DNA of 64,000 nt, taken from assembly GCF_018448935.1 (NCBI RefSeq), contig NZ_RCWC01000020.1, positions 1-64,000 on the forward strand, in the 5' to 3' direction. This document shows positions 46,766 to 63,921 of the stretch, piece by piece. Origin of the DNA: Photorhabdus noenieputensis. Its GTDB lineage: Bacteria; Pseudomonadota; Gammaproteobacteria; Enterobacterales; Enterobacteriaceae. The notes under the pieces are model-generated. The model was given only the letters and a program-made list of their open reading frames with translations. It was not told where the DNA came from and searched no databases. The translations under genes were made by a program, and so were the position numbers. The first letter of the stretch is position 1. Each line of letters opens with the position of its first letter.

Positions 46766-47086
46766 ATGAACTGGAACATTGAGCTCTATGATGGTGTCGA
46801 GGATGCGATCCTCAATATGCCACCCAGAATTCAGGCTCGTATGCTAAAACTGCTTGAACTCATTGAAGAATATGGTGCTAATCTTGGAGAGCCGCGCACT
46901 AAGTCAATGGGAAAAGGTCTATTCAAGATTCGAGCCAAAGCACAAGAAGGTATTGGACGCGGATTGTTTTGCTATCTACAAGATTCAAACATCATTGTCC
47001 TTCATGCATTTATTAAGAAAAACCAGAAGATATCTAAAAAGGATCTTGATCTCGCTTATGAACGAATGAAAGAGGTTACAAAATGA
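46766..47086 (+). CDS. HigB/RelE-family toxin
   Basis: The 106-residue toxin belongs to the phage-derived Gp49-like/HigB branch of the RelE superfamily. It shows the pattern WNIELYDGVEDAILNMPPRIQARMLKLLELI, EPRTKSMGKGLFKIRAKAQEGIGRGLFCYL and the closing VLHAFIKKNQKISKKDLDLAYERMKE. The arginine/lysine-rich active region is intact. It is expected to cleave mRNA at ribosomes. Toxin-first order and a four-base overlap (ATGA) with the HTH antitoxin fit HigBA modules. Confidence 0.88.
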   Translation: MNWNIELYDGVEDAILNMPPRIQARMLKLLELIEEYGANLGEPRTKSMGKGLFKIRAKAQEGIGRGLFCYLQDSNIIVLHAFIKKNQKISKKDLDLAYERMKEVTK

Positions 47087-47361
47087 GTAGCTTAAAGTCT
47101 CTAAAATCCAAAGCATTAGCTAACCCAGATGTAAAAGCTGAGTATGATGCGCTAGAACCAGAATTCGAGCTAATTAATACTCTATTACGCATGCGGCATG
47201 CTGCTGGTCTAACGCAAAACCAAGTTGCACAGCGTATGGGAACAAAAGAAGCGAATATTTCCAGGCTTGAAAAAGGAAACGGAAACCCAACACTTAAAAC
47301 ACTATTGAACTACGCCAAAGCTTGCAATTGTGAACTGCATTTTGGTTTTAAAACAATTTAA
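47083..47361 (+). CDS. HigA-family XRE antitoxin
   Basis: The 92-residue antitoxin has a Cro/C1-type helix-turn-helix in its C-terminal half (LLRMRHAAGLTQNQVAQRMGTKEANISRLEKGNGNPTLKTLLNYAKA) and an N-terminal acidic helix likely to bind toxin. It neutralises the upstream HigB-like protein and probably represses the promoter through the dyad at 46726. Confidence 0.88.
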   Translation: MSSLKSLKSKALANPDVKAEYDALEPEFELINTLLRMRHAAGLTQNQVAQRMGTKEANISRLEKGNGNPTLKTLLNYAKACNCELHFGFKTI

Positions 47362-48326: not shown

Positions 48327-48399
48327 AAAATAATCATTTAAAAAAGGAGTGCCCTTAAAAGGCCAATGTAATCTGGCCGGGACAGGGTTATCACAGAGA

Positions 48400-49995
48400 A
48401 TGAAAATTTTTAATATGCCAACCGGGGAACAATCCCCGCCAGAGCATCCGATGAATACTGAAAAAACGTTCATCAATAGAGTGAAGCAGAATGTTAGCCG
48501 AAATCGCCGGTGGTCGGCATGGGTAATGTGCGTATCTATAGGGGCGCTTTTTTTCACCTCAGTATTGGCTGCTACTGAATACCCCAGTAAACCAACACCA
48601 GACCTAGGGGACGCAGAATACATATTCAAATCTCTCGGGCAACCAATAATCAATGGGAAAGACAACAAGGTCTCCATCACCTCCACTTACACCGCAACCG
48701 CCATGTTATTAACCAATGGCAGAATGGTCGCCTGGGGAGATGAGAGCGGTGGCGGCTCTATACCGTCAGAAATTGCCAAATTACAAGATATCGTCAGCCT
48801 GAGTTCAACAGGCTATGCATTCGCAGCCCTGCGGGCAGACCGTAGCGTGGTCGCTTGGGGAGATGAGAAGTATGGCGGCTCTATACCGCCAGAAATTGCC
48901 AAATTACAGGATATTGTCAGCCTGAGTTCAACAAATTATGCTTTCGCTGCCCTACGGGCAGACGGTAGTGTAGTCGCTTGGGGAGATCAGAAATATGGCG
49001 GCAAATTACCAGCAGAAATTGCTGAATTAAAGGACATTATAAGCATAAGTTCAATACATAACATTTCGGATAGTGTCTGTGCAGCCTGGTGGCCAGACCG
49101 TAATCAAGCCTATTGCGGAGATGACAACCGTGGCAAGTACAAAGTAGTTGCACAATATAGCTTTACAAATGATACCTTTACCGCCCTTAGGGCAAACGGT
49201 AGGGTGGTCGCTTGGGGAAAAGTCCCGGTCCCGCCAGACATTAAAAAGTTAGAGGATATTATTAGTCTAAGTTCAATAAATAATATTTTTATCGCCCGGC
49301 GAGCAGATCTCAGCGTAGTCACTTGGCCCGGGTATCCCATACCTCCTGAAATTGCAAAATGGCAGGATATTATCCACCTGGATGTAACAACCTATGCTGT
49401 AGCCGCCCTGCGGGCAAACCGTAGCGTGGTCGCTTGGGGGCATCAAAACTATGGCGGCCAAGTCCCACCAGAAATTGCCGCATTACGAGATATTGTCAGC
49501 TTAAGTGCAACAAATGGTGCTTTCGCCGCTTTGCGTACCGATCGCAGTGTCGTCGCCTGGGGGGACCCGGGCTCTGGTGGTCAGGTTCCACCCGAAATTG
49601 CCGTATTAAAAGATATCGTCAGCCTATACTCATCAAGGAACACATTTATAGCTCTACGGGCAGACCGCAGTGTGGTCTCCTGGGGTCTTATTAGTGTCCC
49701 ACCCGAGATTGCTAAATTAAAGGATATCGTCAGCTTGAAAACTACTGATATTGATGATTCCGTGAATCGAGGTAATTATGCTTTCGCAGCTCTACGAGCA
49801 AATCGTAGCGTGGTCGCTTGGGGGTTCAAAGAGCTTAATATCCAGATACCACCTGGAATAACCCAACTACAAGATATCATCAGCCTAAGTGCATCCAGCA
49901 GCGCATTCACCGTTTTACGGGCGAATGGCCAAAGATTAGCCTGGGACCTTTTGGATCTGGGTGACAATATAGTACATAGCGAATATGATGATTAG
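48400..49995 (+). CDS. Secreted RCC1-repeat propeller protein with adhesin-family leader
   Basis: The protein of about 531 residues has the same first 50 residues as its neighbours (MKIFNMPTGEQSPPEHPMNTEKTF, then a signal peptide with WVMCVSIGALFFTSVLAA). The mature part differs: about nine repeats of 40-55 residues with the pattern DIVSLSS...AFAALRADRSVVAWG...GG.VPPEIA.L, typical of RCC1/beta-propeller repeats. It is therefore a swap of a new mature domain onto a family leader. RCC1-like proteins mediate protein or DNA contacts; here secretion suggests host or surface binding. An in-frame GTG at 48349 behind AAGGAG and an ATG at 48451 are alternative starts. Confidence 0.75.
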   Translation: MKIFNMPTGEQSPPEHPMNTEKTFINRVKQNVSRNRRWSAWVMCVSIGALFFTSVLAATEYPSKPTPDLGDAEYIFKSLGQPIINGKDNKVSITSTYTATAMLLTNGRMVAWGDESGGGSIPSEIAKLQDIVSLSSTGYAFAALRADRSVVAWGDEKYGGSIPPEIAKLQDIVSLSSTNYAFAALRADGSVVAWGDQKYGGKLPAEIAELKDIISISSIHNISDSVCAAWWPDRNQAYCGDDNRGKYKVVAQYSFTNDTFTALRANGRVVAWGKVPVPPDIKKLEDIISLSSINNIFIARRADLSVVTWPGYPIPPEIAKWQDIIHLDVTTYAVAALRANRSVVAWGHQNYGGQVPPEIAALRDIVSLSATNGAFAALRTDRSVVAWGDPGSGGQVPPEIAVLKDIVSLYSSRNTFIALRADRSVVSWGLISVPPEIAKLKDIVSLKTTDIDDSVNRGNYAFAALRANRSVVAWGFKELNIQIPPGITQLQDIISLSASSSAFTVLRANGQRLAWDLLDLGDNIVHSEYDD

Positions 49996-50034
49996 CCGAT
50001 TGGTATTATGAATCACTAAAAAACACGAAAACCA

Positions 50035-50064
50035 AGGCTGAACCACAATACCTCGGTTCAGCCT
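50035..50064 (+). terminator. Hairpin after array unit 1
   Basis: Perfect 10-bp stem AGGCTGAACC / GGTTCAGCCT. A homologous hairpin with one wobble pair follows unit 2 at 51716. No strong T-run. Confidence 0.6.
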
Positions 50065-50627
50065 ATCGTTTATTCCATTTGAAATATCAACTCATTCGCC
50101 CGCTGTTATTACCAATATCAACTGACAAATAAAGTTCAAAAGACAATAACTTTACGAAATAGTTTGAAAAATAAATATTAAAAATCTCAAAACAACTAAT
50201 TATTTATAAACTATGTAGAGCAAAAATTACGACAACAACTTAACAATTTTTTATTTCCTGCCTGACAATTAATTGTTAGTTAATTAAGTTACTCATTCAA
50301 GTAATAATAGCCATAAAGATGTATATCCCCTCTAAATCCTTCTGTCTAAATCTCATTACTATCACTCTTATCATTTACCTATGAAAAGCCACCAACAATC
50401 AACTTTAGAGTTAACCAATAGTTATAGACTGATAATCTTTTATTATCACATTCTGTTAATTTTTTGTTTTTCTATTATCTTTTTCTTAAAGAGTTGCTAA
50501 ACTTATTTATGTCTTGTTAGTCGCAATAGAAAATCAGCGTAATCTGCAAGGGATTCAGTTTTGCGGTATAGCTCCCCTGTGGGTAAAAAAGGTCAATCCA
50601 ATACAACCTTAAATTTAGGAGCACAAT

Positions 50628-50681
50628 ATGAATCAAGACGATTTCTCCTCAAACATAAGTTCCAGCAATACTCTTATATAA
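50628..50681 (+). CDS. Conserved leader peptide, unit 2
   Basis: 17 codons (MNQDDFSSNISSSNTLI) behind AGGAG. Differs from unit 1 at residues 2, 4 and 10 and uses TAA where the other two use TGA; ORF length is unchanged. Confidence 0.5.
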   Translation: MNQDDFSSNISSSNTLI

Positions 50682-50701
50682 ATGCAATCTGTAATAACGG
50701 C

Positions 50702-50723
50702 CTGCGCGGGTAACCCGATGCAG
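50702..50723 (+). promoter_or_regulatory. Leader hairpin, unit 2
   Basis: Same 22-nt hairpin as unit 1 except that the fifth base is G instead of A, which still pairs with U (wobble). Confidence 0.65.
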
Positions 50724-50796
50724 AAAATAATCATTTAAAGAAGGAGGGCCCTTAAAAGGCCAATGCAATCTGGCCGGGACAGGGTTATCACAGAGA

Positions 50797-51648
50797 ATGA
50801 AAATTTTTAACATGCCAATCGGGGAACAATCCCCGTCAGAGCATCCGATGAATACTGAAAAAACGTTCATCAACAGCGTCAAGCAGAATGTTGGCCGAAA
50901 TCGACGGTGGCCGGTATGGATAATGTGCGTGTCCATCGGGGCGCTTTTTTCCACTTCGGTATTAGCCGCGCCTGAATGCCCCAGTAAACAACCAACACCA
51001 GACCCAGTATACCCTGCTAGCCCGCCCTGGAACGCAGAACTCATATTCAGAGCCCTCGGGCAGCCAATCATCAATGGGAAAGACAACAAAGGTCAGCCGG
51101 TTCATTACCCAACAAGAGCAAGTGGGTACACTAACTTACCGAATGTCTTTCCGCCAGTAGTCAATCATGAGTTTCCAACGCCGACCGGAGATTTAAAGTT
51201 AAAAGAGAGCCTGTTTTGGGTTAAAGCACCAAACGGAATCTTCAAGGTTCCGCATGTGATCACAGGTAAGTATTACTGTAAGATGACTGCCAAGCGTAAA
51301 GATGGCGCGCCCGGCAAAGCCACAGTAGACCTTTATACGGATGCTGTCGTTGCAAATCAGATCATCCACAGGTTCCAGGGAGACAAAAACGTTCTGCAAT
51401 CTAGCGTGACAGACCTGATTTACACAGCGGCCTGCAAAGGGACTGGATTTTCATGGGAACGTAAACCCGAAGAGAAATTTGAATGGGAAAGTGTATGGGA
51501 CAACCCAGCACTGTCAATTAAAATGCAAGACCTGTGCAATTGGGCTCATGATGTTGCTTTCTGGACACCACCAAGCGACAATCCGAATGATCGGTTTAAA
51601 GACCCTGCCGTCATGAGACCTACTGGTACGGATAGCAGCAATAAATAA
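50797..51648 (+). CDS. Secreted single-domain adhesin-like protein, unit 2
   Basis: The 283-residue protein carries the family leader (MKIFNMPIGEQSPSEHPMNTEKTF), a signal peptide ending near SVLAA, and one mature domain. Key shared features with the N-terminal domain of the fimbrial-tip-like protein at 58776 are WNAELIFRALGQP, IFKVPHVITGKYYCKM.AKRKDG, a V.LYTD strand, DLIYTAACKGTGFSWERKPEEKFEW and two cysteines in matching positions. It has no C-terminal pilin domain, so it cannot be polymerised into a pilus by donor strand exchange and is probably a free secreted or periplasmic protein. Function unknown; carbohydrate or host binding is a guess from the fimbrial relative. Confidence 0.75.
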   Translation: MKIFNMPIGEQSPSEHPMNTEKTFINSVKQNVGRNRRWPVWIMCVSIGALFSTSVLAAPECPSKQPTPDPVYPASPPWNAELIFRALGQPIINGKDNKGQPVHYPTRASGYTNLPNVFPPVVNHEFPTPTGDLKLKESLFWVKAPNGIFKVPHVITGKYYCKMTAKRKDGAPGKATVDLYTDAVVANQIIHRFQGDKNVLQSSVTDLIYTAACKGTGFSWERKPEEKFEWESVWDNPALSIKMQDLCNWAHDVAFWTPPSDNPNDRFKDPAVMRPTGTDSSNK

Positions 51649-51663
51649 AAATCGTCAACAAAA

Positions 51664-51742
51664 CAGCCGGGGAGTAATTCCCAGTTGAGCACGCAATAAT
51701 TGTTACTAAAACCAAGGCTGAGCCATAACACTCGGTTCAGCC
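51664..51742 (+). repeat. Relic of a further array gene start plus terminator hairpin
   Basis: GCCGGGGAGTAATTCCCAG at 51666 corresponds to the codons AGEQSPVEHP of the family leader, with a stop in frame, so it is the decayed beginning of another copy. The terminator hairpin GGCTGAGCC / GGTTCAGCC follows at 51716-51742. Confidence 0.55.
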
Positions 51743-52324
51743 CATCGCTTATTCCATTTAAAATATCATCCCACCCGCCCGCTGTTATTAGCAAAATCAA
51801 CTGCCAAATAAAGATTAAAAAAACAATAACTTTACGCAACCGTTTTAAAAATAAATATTAAAAACCCCAAAATAACTGATACTTTATAAATCATATAGAA
51901 CGTAAATTACGAAAATAACTTAACAACATCTTATTTTCGACTCGGCAATAGGTTATTAGTTAATTAAGTTACTCGTTCACGTAATAATAGCCATAAAGAT
52001 GTAAATCCCCATTAAATTCTTCTATTTAAATCTCATTATTTTCACTCTTATCATTTATTTGTGAAAAACAATCTTAGCAACCACCACCAACAATCAACTT
52101 TAGCGTTAACCTACAGTTATCAACTGATAACTTTTCGTTATCACATTTTTTTAATCTTTTGCTTTTTCTATTATCTTTTTTTTAAAGAGTTGCTAAACTT
52201 ATTTATGTCTTGTTAGTCGCAATAGAAAATCAGCGTAATCCACAAGGGATTCAGATTTACGGTATAGGCTCCCCTGTGGGTAAAAAAGGTCAATCCAATA
52301 CAACCTTAAATTTAGGAGCGTAAT

Positions 52325-52378
52325 ATGAATCAAGACGATTTCGCCTCAAACATAAGTTCCAGCAATACCCTTATATGA
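52325..52378 (+). CDS. Conserved leader peptide, unit 3
   Basis: 17 codons (MNQDDFASNISSSNTLI) behind AGGAG; one residue different from unit 2 plus a silent change and a TGA stop. Confidence 0.5.
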   Translation: MNQDDFASNISSSNTLI

Positions 52379-52398
52379 ATGCAATCTGTAATAACGGC

Positions 52399-52420
52399 CT
52401 GCACGGGTAACCCGATGCAG
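52399..52420 (+). promoter_or_regulatory. Leader hairpin, unit 3
   Basis: Identical to the unit 1 hairpin although surrounding leader sequence has diverged. Confidence 0.65.
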
Positions 52421-52493
52421 AAAATAATCATTTAAAGAAGGAGGACCCTTAAAAGGCCAATGCAATCTGGCCGGGACAGGGTTATCGCAGAGA

Positions 52494-53399
52494 ATGAAAA
52501 TTTTTAACATGCCAATCGGGGAACAATCCCCGTCAGAGTCTCCGATGAATACTGAAAAAACGTTCATCAACAGAGTAAAGCAGAATATTGGCCGAAATCG
52601 CCGCTGGTCGGCATGGGTAATGTGCGCGTCTATCGGGGCGCTTTTTTCCACCTCGGTATTAGCCGCGCCTGAATGCCCCAGTAAACAACCAACACCAGAC
52701 CCAATATACCCTGCTACTCCCCCTTGGAGAGCAGAATACATATTCAAAGCTCTCGGCCAACCAGTCATCAATGGGAAAGACAACCAAGGTAAGCCGGTTC
52801 ATTACCCAGCAAGGGGGGCCACTAACTTAACGCTTGCCTTTCCAACAGTAGTCGATCATGAGTTTCCAACGCCGACCGGAGATTTGATGTTAAAAGACGG
52901 CATGTTTTGGGTTAGAGCACAAAACAGAATCTTCAGGGTTCCACATGTGATCACAGGTAAGTATTACTGCAAGATGGTTGCCAAACGTAAAGATGGCGCG
53001 CCCGGCAAAGCCACAGTAGACCTTTATACGGATGCTGCCGTTGTAAATCATAAGATCCACAGGTTCCAGGGAGACCAAAACGTTATGGAATCCAGCATAA
53101 CAGACCTGGTTTACACAGCAACCTGCCGTGGAGCCGGATTTTCATGGGAACGTAAACCCGAAGAGAAATTTGAGTGGGAAAGTGAGTGGGAAAATGGAGT
53201 GCCGTCAATTGAGATGCAAGACAACTGCCATTGGATTCATAATGTCGCTTTCTGGACGCCACCAGACGATAATCCAAATGATAAGTTTAAAGACCCGGCC
53301 GTCCTGAGACCTACTAGTGCGGAAAGTGCTAACTCGAAGAAGCCAGTCTCCCAAGATAACCCCCCCTGGAAGAGAAAAGCAGATAGCAATAATCAATAA
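52494..53399 (+). CDS. Secreted single-domain adhesin-like protein, unit 3
   Basis: The 301-residue paralogue of the unit 2 protein shares leader, signal peptide and mature domain (PWRAEYIFKALGQPV, RIFRVPHVITGKYYCKM, DLVYTATCRGAGFSWERKPEEKFEWE, HNVAFWTPPDDNPNDKFKDPAVLRPT). It differs by a longer polar C-terminal tail ending KRKADSNNQ. Differences are spread along the mature domain, whereas the signal region is nearly constant, which fits diversification of the exposed part. No membrane anchor or pilin domain. Confidence 0.75.
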   Translation: MKIFNMPIGEQSPSESPMNTEKTFINRVKQNIGRNRRWSAWVMCASIGALFSTSVLAAPECPSKQPTPDPIYPATPPWRAEYIFKALGQPVINGKDNQGKPVHYPARGATNLTLAFPTVVDHEFPTPTGDLMLKDGMFWVRAQNRIFRVPHVITGKYYCKMVAKRKDGAPGKATVDLYTDAAVVNHKIHRFQGDQNVMESSITDLVYTATCRGAGFSWERKPEEKFEWESEWENGVPSIEMQDNCHWIHNVAFWTPPDDNPNDKFKDPAVLRPTSAESANSKKPVSQDNPPWKRKADSNNQ

Positions 53400-53410
53400 A
53401 GATCATTAAT

Positions 53411-53470
53411 AAAACAGCCGGGGAGCAATCCCCGGTTGAATATCCAATCAATACAGATAATTATACTGAG
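53411..53470 (+). repeat. Relic of a fourth array gene start
   Basis: The sequence reads AGEQSPVEYPINTDN in frame, matching the family leader TGEQSP.EHPMNTEK, then stops. The CCGGGGA / TCCCCGG hairpin of the functional copies is preserved. It marks the truncated end of the tandem array. Confidence 0.55.
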
Positions 53471-53640
53471 TTATAATTCATCTTATCTGCCATTAATCTG
53501 AAATATCATAATATTTAATTCCAGTTATTATACCGATTTTCTAATTCATTCACACTTAATCATATTATCCGCTTACTTGTTCATGTTACTCTTTCGATTA
53601 CTTTCATTCGCAAAATATCTCAATTTATGTGATATTTTAT

Positions 53641-54078
53641 TTAATGATGTAATGTAGTATTAACCGCTATATCTAACTTTCTATTTAACTGATGCAAAGC
53701 CAATTCAACAACTTCAACCTTTGATGAATGTTCAACATCAAGAAGCCGATCAATCTGTGGCCCCTTTTGCCCTAATCGTCGAGCAAGATCGGCTTTGCGT
53801 GTTCCTGTCTCTATCATTGCATTATGCAATGCCACTTTCATTGCGACGAGAATAGGGAGACTGACAACATATTCACCTGCCTCCAACAGGGATGCTTCAG
53901 ATATAGGCCGACGTTTGTCAATTTCTATAGCAATAGCCGTAACCAACCCATCAATAGATTCGAGAAGAGCTTCATCAACTGAGTCACCTACTGAGTTGAA
54001 TAAGGGAAGATCACGACAACTAGCCACATAGCTTCCTGTCTCTTCGTCATATTCTAGTTTTATCGGATAATTAAACAT
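53641..54078 (-). CDS. hicB: HicB-family antitoxin
   Basis: The 145-residue antitoxin has an N-terminal degenerate RNase H-like HicB domain (FNYPIKLEYDEETGSYVASCRDLPLFNSVGDSVDEALLES), and a C-terminal helix-turn-helix (TGTRKADLARRLGQKGPQIDRLLDV) for operator binding. It pairs with the HicA gene 31 bases upstream and should block its nuclease activity. Confidence 0.9.
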   Translation of the reverse strand: MFNYPIKLEYDEETGSYVASCRDLPLFNSVGDSVDEALLESIDGLVTAIAIEIDKRRPISEASLLEAGEYVVSLPILVAMKVALHNAMIETGTRKADLARRLGQKGPQIDRLLDVEHSSKVEVVELALHQLNRKLDIAVNTTLHH

Positions 54079-54109
54079 AATACCTCTCTTTAAGATAGAT
54101 AACCGGAAC

Positions 54110-54292
54110 TTAAAGCCCCAGATCCTTCATTATTTTCTTCCTCAATGGTTCAGGGATCTCTTTGGAGCCATGATCGGGGAAAACCAACGATTTACCATTT
54201 ATAGATACCTTTCGGTGGCTTCCTCCACCCCTAGCCTTCTCGATTAGAACCCCTTGAGAAATTAGCCATCGGCGGAACTCACTGTATTTCAT
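54110..54292 (-). CDS. hicA: HicA-family mRNA interferase toxin
   Basis: The 60-residue toxin has a double-stranded-RNA-binding-like fold. It contains the catalytic GGSHRK with His26, preceded by LISQGVLIEKARG and followed by FPDHGSKEIPEPLRKKIMKDLG. All hallmark residues are intact. Toxin-first order is usual for hicAB. Confidence 0.92.
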   Translation of the reverse strand: MKYSEFRRWLISQGVLIEKARGGGSHRKVSINGKSLVFPDHGSKEIPEPLRKKIMKDLGL

Positions 54293-55190
<898 letters not shown>

Positions 55191-55244
55191 ACCCAATTTC
55201 AGTATTATGCCCAGTCATTTCTTTACCTGTGGAGTCGCACACAT

Positions 55245-55520
55245 ATGGCACGCGTAACTGTTCAAGACGCTGTAGAAAAAATTGGTAACCGTTTTGACCT
55301 AGTGTTGGTCGCCGCTCGTCGAGCGCGTCAACTGCAAACAGGCGGTAAAGACCCGCTGGTGGCGGAAGAGAACGATAAAGTGACGGTTATCGCTCTGCGT
55401 GAAGTGGAAGAGGGGCTGATTAACGGTAAGATCCTGGATGTCCGTGAGCGCCAGGAACAACAAGAGCAGGAAGCCGCAGAGATGCAGGCGGTTTCCGCTA
55501 TCGCGGAAAGTCGTCGTTAA
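55245..55520 (+). CDS. rpoZ: RNA polymerase omega subunit
   Basis: The 91-residue protein ([39 protein letters not shown]) is a standard omega subunit, which assists assembly of beta' and binds ppGpp together with it. It sits between gmk and spoT as usual. Confidence 0.97.
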
Positions 55521-55537
55521 TCTACGGTAGGTCTGCC

Positions 55538-57655
55538 TTGTATCTGTTCGAAAGCCTGAATCTGCTTATCCAAAAATATCTGCCTGGGAGTCAAATTGAA
55601 CTCCTCAAGCAGGCTTACACTGTTGCGCGGGATGCCCATGACGGGCAAACCCGCACCAGTGGCGAACCCTACATTACGCACCCTGTCGCGGTTGCCTGTA
55701 TTCTGGCCGAAATGCGTCTCGACCATGAAACACTGATGGCCGCTTTGTTGCATGATGTTATTGAAGACACGCCCGCCACCTTTCAGGATATCGCCCAACC
55801 TTTCGGCCCGGTGGTCGCCGGGTTAGTCGAGGGAGTTTCCAAGCTTGATAAGCTCAATTTCCGCGATAAAAAAGAGGCGCAGGCGGAAAACTTCCGCAAA
55901 ATGATCATGGCGATGGTGCAAGATATTCGCGTCATTTTGATCAAACTAGCAGACCGTACCCATAATATGCGTACTCTCGGAGCGTTACGTCCAGATAAGC
56001 GCCGTCGTATCGCCCGGGAAACGTTAGAGATTTACAGCCCCTTAGCGCATCGTCTGGGTATTCACCACCTGAAAACCGAGTTAGAAGAACTGGGGTTTGA
56101 AGCTCTCCACCCTAACCGCTACCGGGTTATCAAAGAGGTGGTAAAAGCGGCCCGTGGCAACCGTAAAGAGATGATCCAGAAAATTCTGTCTGAAATTGCC
56201 GGCAGACTGGCCGAAGCCAATATTAAGTGCAAAGTCAGCGGCAGGGAAAAACATCTCTATTCTATCTACCGGAAAATGCACCTCAAAGAGCAGCGCTTCC
56301 ATTCCATTATGGATATCTATGCTTTTCGGGTCATCGTTAACAATGTTGATATCTGTTATCGAGTTTTGGGGCAGATGCACAGCCTGTATAAACCCCGTCC
56401 AGGCAGAGTCAAAGATTACATTGCTATCCCTAAAGCCAACGGCTATCAATCCTTGCATACTTCCCTGATTGGCCCTCACGGTGTACCGGTTGAAGTCCAG
56501 ATTCGCACCGAAGATATGGATCAAATGGCTGAAATGGGCGTTGCGGCACACTGGGCTTACAAAGAACAAGGGGAATCCAGTACCGCCGCGCAAGTTCGCG
56601 CACAACGCTGGATGCAGAGTCTGCTGGAATTACAGCAAAGTGCCGGCAACTCTTTTGAATTTATAGAAAGCGTTAAATCTGATCTGTTTCCTGATGAGAT
56701 TTATGTTTTTACCCCGAAAGGGCGCATTGTGGAACTCCCCGCAGGCGCTACCCCGGTTGACTTTGCTTACGCCGTACACACCGATATTGGTCATGCCTGT
56801 GTTGGTTCGCGAGTTGATCGCCAGCCATATCCACTCTCTCAATCGCTGACCAACGGCCAGACGGTTGAGATTATTACCGCGCCGGGCGCTCGGCCAAACG
56901 CAGCCTGGCTGAACTTTGTCGTTAGTTCAAAAGCGCGCGCCAAAATTCGCCAATTGCTAAAAAACCTTAAGCGGGAAGATTCGATTGGGCTAGGTCGCCG
57001 CCTGCTAAATCACGCGCTGGGCAGTGGGAAAAAGCTGGTTGATATTCCACAGGAAAATATCAATAAAGAGTTGACGAGAATGAAACTCGCGACAATAGAG
57101 GATCTGCTGGCTGAAATCGGACTTGGCAATACCATGAGTATCGTCGTCGCCCGCAACCTGCTAGGCGCACAGGAGAGCAGTGCAAGCACCAGTAGTAATA
57201 ACAACAGAGCGCGTAAATTACCGATCAAAGGCGCTGACGGTGTGCTCATTACTTTTGCCAAATGCTGCCGTCCCATCCCCGGCGACCCGATTATCGCCCA
57301 TATCAGCCCCGGCAAAGGGTTGGTTATCCACCATGAATCCTGTCGTAATATTCGCGGCTATCAGAAAGAGCCGGAGAAATTTATGGCGGTAGAGTGGGAT
57401 AAAGAAGTCAACAGTGATTTTATTGCTGAAATAAAAGTGGATATGTTTAACCATCAAGGGGCGCTGGCAAATCTGACGGCCGCGATTAACGCGGCAAACT
57501 CCAATATTCAGAGCATGAATACAGAAGAGAAAGATGGGCGTGTTTACTGCGCTTTTATCCGGCTGACCACCAAGGACCGCATCCAGTTAGCGAATATTAT
57601 GCGCAAAATCCGCATCATGCCGGATGTGATGCGAGTCAGCCGTAACAGAAACTAA
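55538..57655 (+). CDS. spoT: Bifunctional (p)ppGpp synthetase/hydrolase SpoT
   Basis: This 705-residue enzyme controls the stringent response. It has the HD hydrolase domain with His72-Asp73 in LLHDVIEDTPATF, the weak synthetase domain (about 230-350; GREKHLYSIYRKM, YKPRPGRVKDYIAIPKANGYQSLHTS), the TGS domain (about 390-450; DEIYVFTPKGRIVELPAGATPVDFAYAVH), the conserved CCRPIPGD region and a C-terminal ACT domain. The start is TTG, as in E. coli spoT, giving MYLFESLNLLIQKYLPG. It follows rpoZ by 17 bases. The next gene is not trmH, as in E. coli, but a convergent fimbrial operon. Confidence 0.97.
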   Translation: MYLFESLNLLIQKYLPGSQIELLKQAYTVARDAHDGQTRTSGEPYITHPVAVACILAEMRLDHETLMAALLHDVIEDTPATFQDIAQPFGPVVAGLVEGVSKLDKLNFRDKKEAQAENFRKMIMAMVQDIRVILIKLADRTHNMRTLGALRPDKRRRIARETLEIYSPLAHRLGIHHLKTELEELGFEALHPNRYRVIKEVVKAARGNRKEMIQKILSEIAGRLAEANIKCKVSGREKHLYSIYRKMHLKEQRFHSIMDIYAFRVIVNNVDICYRVLGQMHSLYKPRPGRVKDYIAIPKANGYQSLHTSLIGPHGVPVEVQIRTEDMDQMAEMGVAAHWAYKEQGESSTAAQVRAQRWMQSLLELQQSAGNSFEFIESVKSDLFPDEIYVFTPKGRIVELPAGATPVDFAYAVHTDIGHACVGSRVDRQPYPLSQSLTNGQTVEIITAPGARPNAAWLNFVVSSKARAKIRQLLKNLKREDSIGLGRRLLNHALGSGKKLVDIPQENINKELTRMKLATIEDLLAEIGLGNTMSIVVARNLLGAQESSASTSSNNNRARKLPIKGADGVLITFAKCCRPIPGDPIIAHISPGKGLVIHHESCRNIRGYQKEPEKFMAVEWDKEVNSDFIAEIKVDMFNHQGALANLTAAINAANSNIQSMNTEEKDGRVYCAFIRLTTKDRIQLANIMRKIRIMPDVMRVSRNRN

Positions 57656-57744
57656 ACCGGATAAATTCTTTTTAGGTACTGTTTTGATTATTGTTTTCTA
57701 CACCGGGCAGCCCGCGCAGATCCGCAGGTGAACAGCCAACAGCG

Positions 57745-58146
57745 CTATCCACCGCCACCCCACAAGAGACCACTATCGAATGACGTCGCCGGATAGAGCG
57801 CTGGCGACACATCATGCTGATGTTCAAGGAATAGACCCATCAATACTGAATCAAGCTTATCGAGTATGCGGCCTAACCATCCCTCACCATCCACACCAAA
57901 CATTAACACCAGCCCAATAGCAATAAACAATAGTGGCAAAATCCACGTCCTGCACCAATACGCCAACAGCATACGGGGATAGCGAGAGTAGCGAACTTTG
58001 TTGCCCAATAGCAACCCACAGACAGTAAACAGTACGATGCTGATAACCAATACCACTCGGCTTATCAGCATCCCATAAGGCACTACCCACAGAATCGATA
58101 AAAACTCATCCTCCATCACATCCCGCCAGACAACCACCTGTGTCAT
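57745..58146 (-). CDS. Predicted small membrane protein at fimbrial operon end
   Basis: The protein of about 133 residues has two or three hydrophobic segments (LISRVVLVISIVLFTVCGLLLG and WILPLLFIAIGLVLMFGV) and a glycine-rich tail. No family recognised. It starts six bases after the CaiF/GrlA-like gene ends, so it is probably the last gene of the operon. A TTG at 58191 would extend it into the upstream gene; ATG at 58146 is preferred but both lack strong ribosome binding sites. Confidence 0.5.
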   Translation of the reverse strand: MTQVVVWRDVMEDEFLSILWVVPYGMLISRVVLVISIVLFTVCGLLLGNKVRYSRYPRMLLAYWCRTWILPLLFIAIGLVLMFGVDGEGWLGRILDKLDSVLMGLFLEHQHDVSPALYPATSFDSGLLWGGGG

Positions 58147-58151
58147 ACCCT

Positions 58152-58643
58152 TTAAGAAATAAACGGACCGCAAGCGCGTTGCAAAAACCAAGTGCGCATA
58201 TGATGAATCCGTGATGATGTCAGGGAACGCGCCGACTTCACTGTTTTTGTTACCAGTATCGGGTTCCTCTGGGGCATAGGTTTAACCACTGCCGTAACAA
58301 TCAACATCAGACGCCGACTGCCATGTTTTTCACGAAAAAAGACTTTTTCACAGGAAATCACATCACGCCGCTCATTGTAGATATAATTCATCACATCCCT
58401 TGCCCGGCGTTCTGACACCCGAAACACCTGACTGATTTCACTTTTGGTAAATCCGCGACCCTTCAATAATCCCCAATACGCGACCGCCATGTACAACGGT
58501 GTATCATTCAAATGAGACAAACAGACAGGCAGACGAAAATCCCCATGATTACTTTGCTTGCCAGTAATAGTCTGACTTCCGAGCAAATCAGCCTGACTGC
58601 CGCTCATTTGAAGCGCCATTGAATCATTAACATTGATTGTCAT
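58152..58643 (-). CDS. CaiF/GrlA-family transcriptional regulator
   Basis: The 163-residue protein contains a helix-turn-helix domain resembling the CaiF/GrlA family. The relevant stretch is PLYMAVAYWGLLKGRGFTKSEISQVFRVSERRARDVMNYIYNERRDVISCEKVFF, followed by a basic beta segment (KHGSRRLMLIVTAVV). GrlA activates the LEE pathogenicity island and CaiF the carnitine operon. Related regulators are found at the ends of fimbrial operons, where they link adhesin expression to other functions. Here it follows the tip-like gene by about 130 bases and probably controls this operon or motility. Confidence 0.7.
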   Translation of the reverse strand: MTINVNDSMALQMSGSQADLLGSQTITGKQSNHGDFRLPVCLSHLNDTPLYMAVAYWGLLKGRGFTKSEISQVFRVSERRARDVMNYIYNERRDVISCEKVFFREKHGSRRLMLIVTAVVKPMPQRNPILVTKTVKSARSLTSSRIHHMRTWFLQRACGPFIS

Positions 58644-58775
58644 TTTACTCTCCCCTGGTGACTAACTGGTCGATCTGTTACCACATGAGAAATGAAATAG
58701 TGTGATTTATTGAGATGAAGCACTTAGGCGGCTAAAGCCACCATGCCATATTTAAATACCCTGCCATCGTAGGCG

Positions 58776-60125
58776 TTATCGTACGACTAACGTTGCGTTC
58801 ATGGTGGCCTGAAATTCACCAGAAGTACTAGGATCTAACTTCTTTACTTGCCAAAGTTCCACATAAAATTTGTTTTCAGATAAATAGGTGTTTGGCGTAT
58901 CACCCACAGTAAAGTACAGAACATCCGCCGGGTTAGTTGGAGGACCAAATTTTACTGGCCTATCCATCGCGTTTGACGCCGCCAGCTTAGTATTCCCACC
59001 TATCTCGTTCGGAGTCACTTTTATTCTCAACGCGTCATCGAAGCCAGGTACTACGATACTTTCATTATTATCAGCTAGCTGTGGGGCGGAAAACTGCAAA
59101 GTGGCCACTCCTCCGGCACTGCTCTTATCGCTCACCGTGCATGTAATGTTCATACGAAACCCTGCACTATACCCGCTGCTGAATCCATCTATTGGGAGCT
59201 GTGCCGGATATGGCCCAAGCGACCGGAGAACCTCTCCCATATCCGCTACCCACACAACAGCATGAGGGTCGCCAGCATTTAAACCGCAAACCGGCGGCTC
59301 CAGTACTGTCACCGGGTCTTTGATAGGCGGAAGAGTTGGTTTGGACCACGACATAAGCTCTTCTCCATCAATTAGGACACTCAAAATTGGTGAGTTATCG
59401 TCACGATTGAATTCGACTTTTTCATCAGGATTTCGCTGCCATGAAAAATTTACCCCTCGGCAAGACACATCAAAATAGAGGTCACTTATTCTTTCATGTG
59501 CTCGATCCCAATCACCTTGATTATTAGGGTGTTCCGGCTGGAGCTGTACTGATTCGGAAAGATTTTCATTGGGATATGGCTTATCAAGATTCACCGTAAG
59601 GTGTTGAATAGCTGTTCCTTTTGAAGGTTCATCATCTGGAAGCCATTTAGAATATTTAGTTTTGGCCATAATTGTACATTCGTAACTGCCTGAGACTAGT
59701 CTCGGGACTTTAAAGATTTCCCCACGTGCTCTGAGCTGGAACCGGACCTTATCCAGATCTTCCTGATCATACGAAGTTGTACGAGGCACCATATCCCTCA
59801 TACTATGAATTTGAAACAGATCTAAAGTCGCTTTACCCTCTGCCGGATAATTGATTACTCCATCACTCCGCTTTACCGTCCGCTCAGGCCCCAAGGCTTT
59901 CAAGGCTGCATCAGCGTTCCAATTTCGAAACTGATCAGCAAACACTGAGGGAGAAGAGAAGGTACTTACGGATAGGCATATCATTGCCGCCCATATCGGC
60001 CACTCACGACAACGAACCACCATCCAACCAATATCCTGTTTTAGCTTGTTAATAAACATCTTCTTCGTATTCATCGGCTGCCCAACCGGGAGTAACTTCC
60101 CAGTTGCCATATTAGAAATTTTCAT
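58776..60125 (-). CDS. Two-domain fimbrial tip adhesin-like protein
   Basis: The 449-residue product shares leader (MKISNMATGKLLPVGQPMNTKKMF), long signal peptide and N-terminal domain with the array proteins at 50797 and 52494 (WNADAALKALGPE, EIFKVPRLVSGSYECTIMAKTKYS, DLYFDVSCRGVNFSWQRNPDEKVEF). It adds a C-terminal region (about 290-449) that ends in a pilin-like final strand, GEFQATMNATLVVR, with a cysteine pair (PVCGLNAG, ITCTVSD), as in chaperone-usher tip adhesins. It directly follows the usher gene. The start at MKIS is chosen by family similarity. A receptor-binding role for the N-terminal domain is inferred from position in the operon. Confidence 0.7.
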   Translation of the reverse strand: MKISNMATGKLLPVGQPMNTKKMFINKLKQDIGWMVVRCREWPIWAAMICLSVSTFSSPSVFADQFRNWNADAALKALGPERTVKRSDGVINYPAEGKATLDLFQIHSMRDMVPRTTSYDQEDLDKVRFQLRARGEIFKVPRLVSGSYECTIMAKTKYSKWLPDDEPSKGTAIQHLTVNLDKPYPNENLSESVQLQPEHPNNQGDWDRAHERISDLYFDVSCRGVNFSWQRNPDEKVEFNRDDNSPILSVLIDGEELMSWSKPTLPPIKDPVTVLEPPVCGLNAGDPHAVVWVADMGEVLRSLGPYPAQLPIDGFSSGYSAGFRMNITCTVSDKSSAGGVATLQFSAPQLADNNESIVVPGFDDALRIKVTPNEIGGNTKLAASNAMDRPVKFGPPTNPADVLYFTVGDTPNTYLSENKFYVELWQVKKLDPSTSGEFQATMNATLVVR

Positions 60126-60201
60126 TCGTTGATCTCCCCCCATCCCGGCCAGATTACATCCACCTTTCAGCGGTTCCTCTTCCTCTAATAACGATGGTTC
60201 T

Positions 60202-60259: not shown

Positions 60260-63010
60260 TTAACGGCAGGTTTCGTTCAACTGCCTCATTGGGCTCCAGC
60301 TCTTATCTTGCTTCGCTTTTACCGGCGGTGGCCCTAGGTTAAACACCACCTCGCACTGACTGTCTGGTGCGCTGCCCCACTTCACTTTGAGTACCCCGTT
60401 GGGAGGCATGCCACTTAGGTACACCTGTCCTCCTTCCCCGACGATCGCCGCCAGATTTGTTGCTGTATCCCCTTTAAGCCCCGCCATTGCCCCAAACGGT
60501 ACTGGCTTACCGTGATAGAGCAAATTCATCAGCAATTGCTGCCCGATACGTACAGGGTAATCCACCATCACAACCGCCCCTTTGGTCGGGAATACGTTCT
60601 TGCTACCCTGTGCCATATCAGCCCCTTCCGGCAACGATGACGGATCTAAACTGATACTATTACGGCTGTACGTCTGGGCATAAGGCACAACCGCATATCC
60701 CCAACGATTAGTCGAAATCGAGCTGGAGTTCATCACACGAATACCGCCAACCCCCGATGTCCGCACTAATACCGCCGCATCACCAATACGCGATGCCAAC
60801 GTGACGCCATGCTGATGGGCGATCAATCCGCCACTAATCCCGTAGTTCACACCTCGCCCTCCCGATGAATCGTAGTTGTATCCCAGGTTAGCCTGCCCAA
60901 GGGAACCACTGTATCCCATTGATACTGACCCGCTATTTCCCTGCCCTTTATTAGCCTGACTTTGCGATACACTCCAGGACAGACTATTGTCATCCAGCAA
61001 TGAACCGCCCAAACCTAACTGGTTACTGCTGCGCCCCGTGCTATCGTGGAATAAGCTATAGTTGGCATACGCATTGTTCAGAGCCGCATAGGAGCCAAAC
61101 AGACTCAGAGGAATGTTGACGTTCAACGAAACTTGTCGGTTCTCAGGCCAGTCGCCGTTGCCGCGTATGCGATCGATGCTGTAATTAAGCCCCCAGCCCA
61201 CACGGTAGAAAGAACCATTCAATCCCATCGACAGGGTGGTGTTAGTTTTAGAACTGCCCCAGTAGTTATCCCGCTGACCACTGAGCCACAGGGAATAGTT
61301 ACCCGGCAATGACTGGCTCAATCTCATTTGCCAACTGCTACGACGTCGCTGAGACATCCAAGAGGGAAGCTCCCCCCAAACACTGTAACCTTGGGTATTA
61401 ACATCGGAAAAACTGAGGTAATTACGGGTGGAATAGCGGTATGCGGTTAAATCCACCGTCGTGCCGGAGGTCAGCATACTTTTCGAATACTTAGCCCGGT
61501 AAGATTCTCCGCGCTGAATATCCGCCATATTTTTCAACCGCGCCCGAGAAGTGGTGATATCCGCAGATAACGCTCCCATCATACCAAGGGAAAGCCCGGT
61601 CCCCAGCGCCGCGGACTGGTACGATTGTGCTACCAAACCCCCACCATATAATGTGACGTTGCCGGGCAGACCATAAATCATTGAGACCATGCCAAACACT
61701 GGCTTACGCCCGCCGCTACTATACCCACTAGTGTGATAGCGCCCTGCCGCCGCTTCGTACTTGAATTGCCCCTGCCGCAACATCATCGGCAGGCTAGAAT
61801 AAGCCTGACTGAACCCATGATGAGTACCATCAGCCTCGGTTATCGTTACCTGTAAATCCCCGCCGGTACTGCTCCCCACCAAATCTGTGATACGAAATGG
61901 CCCTGGCGCGACATTAGTTTGATAAATCACACTGCCATTCTGTGTCACCGTCACCTGAGCATTCGATTTAGCTATCCCACTGATAATCGGCGCAAAACCA
62001 CTCTGCCTACCCGGTATCATCGAATCGCTGGTGGCCAGCCCAATCCCACGATAGGGGAAACCATCAAATACCTGCCCCGCCACACTGCCGGTCGAAGTAT
62101 CCCCTATCGTCAGATCACTGCGTAACGCCACCACATCCCGCTGCAAATAGGTTTGCAGGAAGTTCCATCGTTGCCGGGATTGAGTGGTTTTTTTCATGGC
62201 GTCATTGAGTGAGTCATACCGGTTATAAGTTTGGGTACTATAAGAATAAGTCGCCGTGTTACGAAGACGCCAGGCCCCGAGATTCAATCCAGAGTTGAAG
62301 CTACCGAACAGACTCTGATTAGTCTGTTTATTACCAAATTGCGAGCGTTGATTCTGGCTGCCATTAATGTTGTAGTTCAATATGAAAGCCGGGATGCCCT
62401 CTTGCCATAACTTCGGATCAACCTGACCATTGGTTGCAGGCTTCATCGCTATTTGGGGTATACTCAAATTTAACCGCATCTGGGAAAAGTTCAGGCGGGC
62501 CGTAGCCTGAGGAATATATTTACCTAACGGATTCTCTATCGGCTTATCCGCCGGCAAGGTTTTCAGTGCCGGCGTGTCGCTGATATTGACACCGGCGGTA
62601 TCTAACAAATCTGGAGTAAGCACCGGGACCAGCTCGCTGTCGCCATGACGCTGGAACGTAATATCCCGTGAATCAAAAAAAGTGCCATTCACGTAAATAT
62701 CAACACGATAAGTCCCCGGTGCCTGACCTCCGGCGGTTTCAAACTGTGATAAATCCACCGCTTGCCCTGAATTCGAACCAAAGTCCAATAAGGCCGGGTC
62801 AAAATAGTCACGCGCTAGCGCCTGAGCACTCCATCCAGTCAGAAACGCCAGCACCATCCGACAGAAAACCAGAGAAAGGCGCAATTTCACCGGGCACTTT
62901 GATAGCACCAGAGAAATAAAAATACTTTGATTTACACGATGATAAATAGGCGGTCGCTCTAAACGACAACTTATCACCGGAATTAACATTTTCATTGTTA
63001 AAATCGCCAT
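60260..63010 (-). CDS. Fimbrial outer membrane usher
   Basis: The 916-residue PapC/FimD-type usher has an N-terminal domain beginning YFDPALLDFG after an unusually long, basic pre-sequence of about 66 residues. The large beta-barrel carries a plug domain (RGIGLATSDSMIPGRQSGFAPIISGIAKSNAQVTV), GPFRITDL and a C-terminal part with GLKGDTATNLAAIVGEGGQVYLSGMPPNGVLKVKWG. It assembles and exports pilin subunits delivered by the adjacent chaperones. The first in-frame ATG is annotated; a later start near the hydrophobic LVFCRMVLAFLTGW is possible. It lies downstream of the chaperone gene. Confidence 0.93.
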   Translation of the reverse strand: MAILTMKMLIPVISCRLERPPIYHRVNQSIFISLVLSKCPVKLRLSLVFCRMVLAFLTGWSAQALARDYFDPALLDFGSNSGQAVDLSQFETAGGQAPGTYRVDIYVNGTFFDSRDITFQRHGDSELVPVLTPDLLDTAGVNISDTPALKTLPADKPIENPLGKYIPQATARLNFSQMRLNLSIPQIAMKPATNGQVDPKLWQEGIPAFILNYNINGSQNQRSQFGNKQTNQSLFGSFNSGLNLGAWRLRNTATYSYSTQTYNRYDSLNDAMKKTTQSRQRWNFLQTYLQRDVVALRSDLTIGDTSTGSVAGQVFDGFPYRGIGLATSDSMIPGRQSGFAPIISGIAKSNAQVTVTQNGSVIYQTNVAPGPFRITDLVGSSTGGDLQVTITEADGTHHGFSQAYSSLPMMLRQGQFKYEAAAGRYHTSGYSSGGRKPVFGMVSMIYGLPGNVTLYGGGLVAQSYQSAALGTGLSLGMMGALSADITTSRARLKNMADIQRGESYRAKYSKSMLTSGTTVDLTAYRYSTRNYLSFSDVNTQGYSVWGELPSWMSQRRRSSWQMRLSQSLPGNYSLWLSGQRDNYWGSSKTNTTLSMGLNGSFYRVGWGLNYSIDRIRGNGDWPENRQVSLNVNIPLSLFGSYAALNNAYANYSLFHDSTGRSSNQLGLGGSLLDDNSLSWSVSQSQANKGQGNSGSVSMGYSGSLGQANLGYNYDSSGGRGVNYGISGGLIAHQHGVTLASRIGDAAVLVRTSGVGGIRVMNSSSISTNRWGYAVVPYAQTYSRNSISLDPSSLPEGADMAQGSKNVFPTKGAVVMVDYPVRIGQQLLMNLLYHGKPVPFGAMAGLKGDTATNLAAIVGEGGQVYLSGMPPNGVLKVKWGSAPDSQCEVVFNLGPPPVKAKQDKSWSPMRQLNETCR

Positions 63011-63060: not shown

Positions 63061-63106
63061 ATTGCTATTAACCACAATTGCTATTAACCATATTGCTATT
63101 AGCCAC
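63061..63106. repeat. Triple short tandem repeat over chaperone stop
   Basis: ATTGCTATTAACCA(CA), ATTGCTATTAACCA(T) and ATTGCTATTAGCCA(C) follow each other. On the minus strand the unit contains TTAATAG, and the first copy supplies the chaperone stop codon, followed by repeated stops in more than one frame. Confidence 0.8.
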
Positions 63107-63893
63107 TGCCAAATACAGTAATAGATCGACTCTCTTCATCGGTGCTTAACCCAAATTCACCAATAGCACGCCACGATACCGTGACATTATTACCAAGGGA
63201 CATTTTGCCCACCGGCAGTGACCAGCTCTGCTGACCAAATGGCGGCACCATTCTAAATAAATCCTGATCCGGTACGGCAAACGAATTCACCTGTAAAGCC
63301 TGCAACGTTATCCAAAACGGCGACGGATTAGTCAGCGTCACAACACTCTCTTTTACTGATGCGCTTAATTGTTTCACCGCACCGGCAACGCCCTCTTTTG
63401 GCAACCCCTCGGGACGATAGAACACCTTCACCGCCAGCGCCGCCGTCATTTTCACCTTGCCGGAGAACCCCTTAGATACCGATGATGGTTTCTCAGAAGA
63501 CAACATACGCACATTCAGAAAGAACAGAGATTCTCGATCCTTCGGAAAATCTCCGCCGGTACGCAGGATTTTCAACACCTGCCGTTCATGTGCATCCACC
63601 TTGGCAATAGGCGGAATCACGATAAATGGTGCCTTAGCATCCAATGGTAAACCGGTGGCAGGGTCCAATTCCCGTACCGTTGACTGAATCAGATAATTGC
63701 TGTCGCTGTTATTAATGAATGTCGAAGGAACACCATTGCTGAATGATTCAAAGTAAATCACCCGGGCATCATTGATATATAACACTCCGTCCAGACTCTC
63801 TTCCGCCCTCAGTGGTAAAACCGGTGATACCATTGCCAGAGCGCATAACACAGACGTCACTCTCTGCTTTATTGAAACCTTACGCTCCGCCAT
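63099..63893 (-). CDS. Periplasmic fimbrial chaperone
   Basis: The PapD-like chaperone has about 264 residues and a signal peptide (basic start, then VLCALAMVSPVLPLRA). The first Ig-like domain has the G1-strand/PPI pattern (LIQSTVRELDP, FIVIPPIAKVDAHERQVLKILRTG, RESLFFLNVRMLSS). The second domain begins AALAVKVFYRPEGLP, the classical K.FYRP.G block. It stabilises pilin subunits by donor strand complementation. The start at MAERKVS follows GGAAG eight bases upstream. Confidence 0.9.
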   Translation of the reverse strand: MAERKVSIKQRVTSVLCALAMVSPVLPLRAEESLDGVLYINDARVIYFESFSNGVPSTFINNSDSNYLIQSTVRELDPATGLPLDAKAPFIVIPPIAKVDAHERQVLKILRTGGDFPKDRESLFFLNVRMLSSEKPSSVSKGFSGKVKMTAALAVKVFYRPEGLPKEGVAGAVKQLSASVKESVVTLTNPSPFWITLQALQVNSFAVPDQDLFRMVPPFGQQSWSLPVGKMSLGNNVTVSWRAIGEFGLSTDEESRSITVFGSG

Positions 63894-63921
63894 GTGATGC
63901 TCTTCCAATCTCAAAATATAC

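Follow-up and report, generated by a model that had tools for sequence, protein, structure and literature searches.

Stand-alone relatives of a pilus tip binding domain and their shared 5′ module at a Photorhabdus locus

Two-domain tip adhesins such as FimH, MrkD, UcaD, UclD, LpfD and MrpH are encoded in an operon with an usher and chaperones, and comprise a binding domain and a pilin domain. In Photorhabdus, the mad (maternal adhesion) operon is described as having a promoter whose inversion switches it from a mutualistic to a pathogenic form and back (PMC5333078, PMC5585154), and a madA mutant is reported to fail to colonise the nematode (PMC9639317). The propeller lectins PLL2 and PLL3 of the same genus are reported to occur in the extracellular fraction (PMC12203525). 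In this article, we describe a stretch of 64,000 nucleotides of Photorhabdus noenieputensis (contig NZ_RCWC01000020.1, positions 1 to 64,000; hereafter the window), in which a tip adhesin gene on the minus strand (58776..60125) is accompanied by three related genes on the plus strand. Two of these, AdA (50797..51648) and AdB (52494..53399), encode a leader followed by a stand-alone tip-type binding domain, and the third (48400..49995) is a chimera in which the family leader and the first ~90 residues precede an RCC1-type propeller. The plus-strand genes form an array between ligB/higBA and gmk, on the other side of gmk-rpoZ-spoT from the tip gene, which lies past spoT, and all four frames are open at the coordinates given.

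Binding domains without a pilin domain

As noted in the initial annotation of the window, the four products have a common start, MKI.NM...G...P.MN(T)(E/K)K. In each of them, a hydrophobic stretch free of charged residues begins near residue 42-44. This family resemblance is not a matter of chance, because, when the 50797 product was used to search the genome of the window, the hits were confined to that product and its three relatives described here (E 2.4e-161, 1.6e-39, 1.0e-21). Among the three plus-strand genes, similarity of the DNA extends over the coding start and about 650-770 bases upstream of it. The mature parts of AdA and AdB align to the N-terminal half of the 58776 product, and a profile built from 12 tips alone detects 28 array domains in the genus. 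The profile has 378 positions, and these matches stop at 185-204, short of the pilin domain. The second domain is also absent from the predicted structure of AdB, the binding domain of which is 25-31% identical to those of the 12 tips. As judged from these alignments, AdA and AdB are the binding (N-terminal) domain of the tip adhesin minus its pilin domain, and the earlier proposal of a modular set built on one leader, some members of which are free of the pilus, is supported.

The model of the AdB domain is confident. Fimbrial receptor-binding domains make up most of the solved structures closest to it, though at low Z. A Foldseek search with this domain gave no match at E <= 0.001 in the PDB or among viral models, an array-domain profile compared with the sequences of solved structures matched only two ribosome-interacting GTPases (E about 0.1), and neither Pfam (best E 0.026) nor NCBIfam held a credible family for the array proteins or the tip. 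A binding role of the array and tip domains is an inference, to which the fold and the fast protein change described below lend some help.

The 58776 product has the two-domain tip fold, with an N-terminal binding domain (about 59933-59334) and a C-terminal pilin domain (about 59333-58779), and, as had been annotated, its gene belongs to a chaperone-usher operon. The usher (60260..63010; PF00577, E 2.1e-166) and a chaperone (63099..63914; PF00345, E 1.9e-25) lie on the same strand within the window, and the operon extends past it with two further chaperones, a PF00419 pilin and more small proteins. The binding domain of the tip presumably recognizes the host. At its end in the window's genome, the operon has 29-bp inverted repeats, 265 bp apart, adjoining a tyrosine recombinase gene identified by Pfam; in a second species the repeats are 35 bp long and 258 bp apart, so that they are present in both genomes examined. 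The operon bears, by these sequence features, the signature of an invertible promoter. It is probably the mad operon, which we take to lie at this locus. In two species, the tip requires a later start codon.

All 12 Photorhabdus genomes searched have the locus, and they contain the 28 pilus-free domains between them. When 246 genomes sampled from the family were searched with a profile made from array and tip domains, three matched, all of them Photorhabdus, and the other 243 did not; the tip-only profile matched 12 of 58 relatives, which are the 12 Photorhabdus genomes; and a scan of named genomes gave nine loci, every one in Photorhabdus. This restriction to the genus holds at the thresholds used, below which more distant homologues may fall. 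Twelve stretches from the 11 genomes of this set other than the window's own were mapped together with the window, and in each the array domains are on the gmk side and the tip is beyond spoT, with a regulator and a small protein between them; the array of one genome (G005) is divided over two contigs. In the window, the regulator is of the CaiF/GrlA type (58152..58643, minus strand; PF07180, E 1.9e-10) and follows the tip gene, and the small protein (57745..58191, minus strand) has no family assigned. No stand-alone tip-domain family of this kind was found in the open Photorhabdus literature, most subscription papers being outside the search; the open papers contained no mention of six presumed array locus tags, and no mad locus tags or "madswitch" were found in them.

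In the model that we propose, the tip gene of the invertible-promoter operon would have been duplicated with about 100 bases of its upstream sequence, and the copies would have lost the pilin domain to form an array of stand-alone binding domains beyond gmk-rpoZ-spoT. Every copy starts from a common 5′ module, consisting of a hairpin and then usually a signal peptide of the tip type, and the forms with a signal peptide would be exported by Sec as far as the periplasm. The chaperone and usher of a pilus act on the pilin fold. A lone binding domain without that fold would therefore be no substrate for chaperone or usher and would not enter the pilus. Instead, the array proteins would act as soluble binders, apart from the pilus, on the class of host surface that the tip recognizes. 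That they are soluble paralogues of the tip binding domain, made without chaperone or usher, is the reading that we favour on balance and with modest confidence. The free domains, which belong to the domain family of the tip and lack its anchor, might alternatively be self-made decoys that occupy the receptors of the tip, so that the bacteria detach or escape a hold at the host surface; however, the low identity between array and tip domains makes a common ligand uncertain, and we regard this alternative as unlikely.

The 5′ module and the export signal

An alignment of 43 family genes shows a purine stretch resembling a Shine-Dalgarno sequence (mostly AAGGAG) that is followed by a hairpin in two parts and, 50 columns after the purines, by the ATG. 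These 43 are the genes among 66 that have an MK(I/T) start, the omitted ones being 20 RCC1 frames, one array domain and two tips. On the plus strand of the window, the module of the chimera (48344..48399) has AAGGAG at 48344-48349, the hairpin at 48350-48389 and the ATG at 48400; that of AdA (50741..50796) has AAGGAG at 50741-50746 and the hairpin at 50747-50786; and that of AdB (52438..52493) has them at 52438-52443 and 52444-52483. The homologous module of the tip gene (60126..60181, minus strand) has a hairpin that is not stable alone (z +0.97).

In 32 distinct rows of the alignment, 89.7% of the cells pair. The hairpin covaries in that 26 cells have double-sided changes, whereas shuffled alignments average 10.2 (none of 500 reached 26) and slid structures no more than 6, a comparison that is biased in favour of the tested structure, which was derived from one aligned sequence. 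The pairs with double-sided changes number four, which is not above the shuffles (289 of 500), and the further pair types number ten, which is below the shuffle level. RNAalifold gave -11.2 for 40 distinct rows of a longer stretch, versus -1.2 for column shuffles (0 of 100). Folding of single sequences beats shuffles for the three array genes of the window (z -2.5 to -2.9) and is no better than shuffles for the tip or for two genes taken from other species (-0.80, +0.15). A covariance model found 46 places in the 12 genomes, at the starts of all 28 array domains, all 12 tips and all 6 chimeras. Its own training rows account for 43 of them, the new ones being one array domain and two tips, and weaker copies could have escaped a search in which each genome gave 2283-2713 candidates at first look and 150 of these were scored. 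The possibility of a conserved reading frame upstream was also considered and was dropped because such a frame is, by eye, missing from the tip and from several array genes.

In genes 38 and 25 of phage T4, a hairpin shortens an overlong spacing between the Shine-Dalgarno sequence and the ATG (PMC3014915). The hairpin in the Photorhabdus module has the same location and, by analogy, may bring a distant Shine-Dalgarno sequence near the ATG; in contrast to T4, the spacing here would drop from about 50 nt to about 10-14, and all copies of one gene family have the element.

A stretch resembling a signal peptide is present in 19 of the 28 array domains, all 12 tips and all 6 chimeras, according to a crude test that also flagged 2 of 20 leaderless RCC1 frames, judged false (one frame begins inside repeats). 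The other nine array domains are without it, and in one signal-less type the leader is retained up to its residue 16, after which the mature domain follows directly. The leader had initially been described as constant. This is true of the 5′ module, which is present in 12/12 genomes, whereas the export part is, on comparison of these sequences, optional across the genus, being absent from the nine array domains and, with the whole leader, from 20 of 26 RCC1 frames. The term "secreted", also used at first, is therefore a prediction for 19 of the 28 domains, and for these it reaches the periplasm at the furthest. A protein profile of the leader matched at this locus only, short leader fragments included, and one such fragment directly 3′ of AdB (53399..53461, plus strand; E 1.7e-4) is a possible remnant of a further copy. 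Within the part of AdA and AdB that encodes the signal peptide, there is a terminator-like stem followed by a run of T (50929-50944 and 52626-52641, respectively).

The RCC1 chimera

The 48400 product carries RCC1 repeats (PF13540, E 2.5e-26; 91.2 bits versus a curated cut-off of 22), in agreement with the propeller originally assigned to it; the longer PF25390 model is below its own cut-off (72.4 of 150), and a comparison with the sequences of solved structures gave nothing at E <= 0.001. The leader is shared with the family, as had been noted, but the common portion is longer than the leader and extends to about residue 90 (base ~48673). The fusion junction (48661..48673, plus strand) coincides with GACAACAA or falls a few bases from it, and one array gene and one unfused RCC1 gene also contain this sequence. 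Of the RCC1 frames counted, which are those within the fetched stretches, further ones lying elsewhere, 6 of 26 have the leader, in six species and with an identical junction, and RCC1 relatives are found in 11 of the 12 genomes of the genus. In P. caribbeanensis, an unfused sister adjoins the chimera and is 85% identical to it over most of its length. What precedes the RCC1-type propeller in the chimera therefore belongs to the tip-domain family, from the region upstream of the gene through the leader to residue ~90, and the simplest reading is a single fusion in an ancestor of the six species.

Two more leaderless RCC1-type genes were seen on the minus strand past recG, outside the window on the contig to which it belongs (L056 13592-14905 and 14985-15947). 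In addition, an upstream stretch of AdA and AdB (about -240 to -128; 50560-50670 and 52255-52366) is similar to the region around the start of an unfused RCC1 gene, which looks like a joint copying of the starts of array and RCC1 genes.

Recombination, protein change and comparison with known systems

AdA and AdB of six species were compared from -700 to +950. Between -325 and about +350 (50472..51146 in AdA and 52169..52843 in AdB, plus strand), the two genes are indistinguishable across the six species, AdA and AdB of the same genome being as alike as AdA orthologues and copies from different genomes nearly so; AdB orthologues remain somewhat more alike. From +425 onward, orthologues are clearly closer than paralogues. 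The tree of +425 to +790 splits A from B with 100% support, and the trees of -325 to +350, -100 to +170 and -700 to -330 contain no such split. Gene conversion of the 5′ part is likely, because constraint alone would not erase the split yet leave 8-19% divergence among AdA genes. The 5′ module would thus recombine, being shared among the copies and once joined to an RCC1 propeller to give a second predicted exported protein. In the tip L044 13214-14557 of a putative P. namnaonensis, the first ~50 residues of the leader are like those of another species group and the rest resembles its own clade, so that, by eye, this tip too looks as if recombined at the leader.

In the clade of the window, mean dN/dS is 0.41 for AdA, 0.35 for AdB, 0.30 for the chimera, 0.50 for the tip and 0.07 for the usher (15 pairs each), and diversifying selection was not found in this clade. 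The recombination of the module among array copies is also what would be expected if the array consisted of cassettes from which the tip gene acquires new sequence by recombination; however, the distance between AdB and the tips leaves no recent transfer of a mature domain into the tip visible, and the array frames are intact, with the dN/dS values given above, which makes this role very unlikely. The leader fragments and short RCC1 remnants in the array could likewise be taken as signs that the copies are decaying duplicates without function, but 28 array domains are open across the 12 genomes and dN/dS is well below 1, and we consider decay improbable.

Protein change is elevated in four other species, in which pN/pS is 1.06-3.48 for the tip, 0.03-0.08 for part of the usher and 0-0.05 for spoT. 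One signal-less array gene has 0.68-3.69 and one more pair without any synonymous change, and the two remaining array genes have 0.09-1.18. This excess comes from few changes in non-independent pairs (Fisher p 0.03-1 for the tip and 0.012-0.51 for the signal-less array member), and recombination may have contributed to it. The binding domain of the tip does not change faster than its pilin domain (median identity 51% versus 38%, 66 pairs). No recognised exit route is present and nine of the array forms are without a signal peptide, as would suit periplasmic or intracellular binders that never meet the host and bind, for example, the cell's own glycans; the highest pN/pS of the signal-less member, although from small counts, suits host contact better, and such a confinement seems to us unlikely.

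In the wider context of the window, the array is flanked by a HigB/HigA-like pair (46766-47361) and a HicB-like antitoxin gene (53641-54078), both named by resemblance. An Rfam scan of the window at gathering thresholds gave one tRNA and nothing else, and a promoter scan gave 15 sites versus 16.6 expected, a count so near expectation that the scan is uninformative.

If the array proteins are soluble paralogues of the tip domain, they would constitute a testable second arm of host recognition beside the apparent switch locus between mutualism and pathogenicity. It might tentatively be supposed, in addition, that one binding activity is delivered in two ways, on a switchable pilus tip and as soluble, pilus-free domains (plus a propeller equipped with their start and export module). 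The soluble forms would either reach the host at a distance or be competitors of the cell's own pilus, and translation of all of them would begin at a start that is bridged by the hairpin and recombines as one piece. The recombining 5′ module also illustrates how an export signal can pass, together with its translation start, to an unrelated protein.

Among known systems, the tip operon matches the mad operon of Photorhabdus in its chaperone-usher genes and its inverted-repeat element of 258-265 bp, and the array itself goes unmentioned in the available portions of the mad descriptions (PMC5333078, PMC5585154). The chimera has RCC1 repeats, like other RCC1-repeat proteins, but differs from most such frames in the fetched stretches in its tip-family leader. 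It is a propeller like the PLL lectins, which act on the host; by description, the latter are seven-bladed and sugar-binding. Fimbrial binding domains have usually been studied as the end of a pilus. The Photorhabdus array proteins share the binding domain of the 58776 tip, which has both domains and the operon context of FimH, MrkD, UcaD, UclD, LpfD and MrpH. Unlike these two-domain adhesins, they have no pilin domain, and their genes are separated from the operon by gmk-rpoZ-spoT, as a conserved family detached from the pilus.

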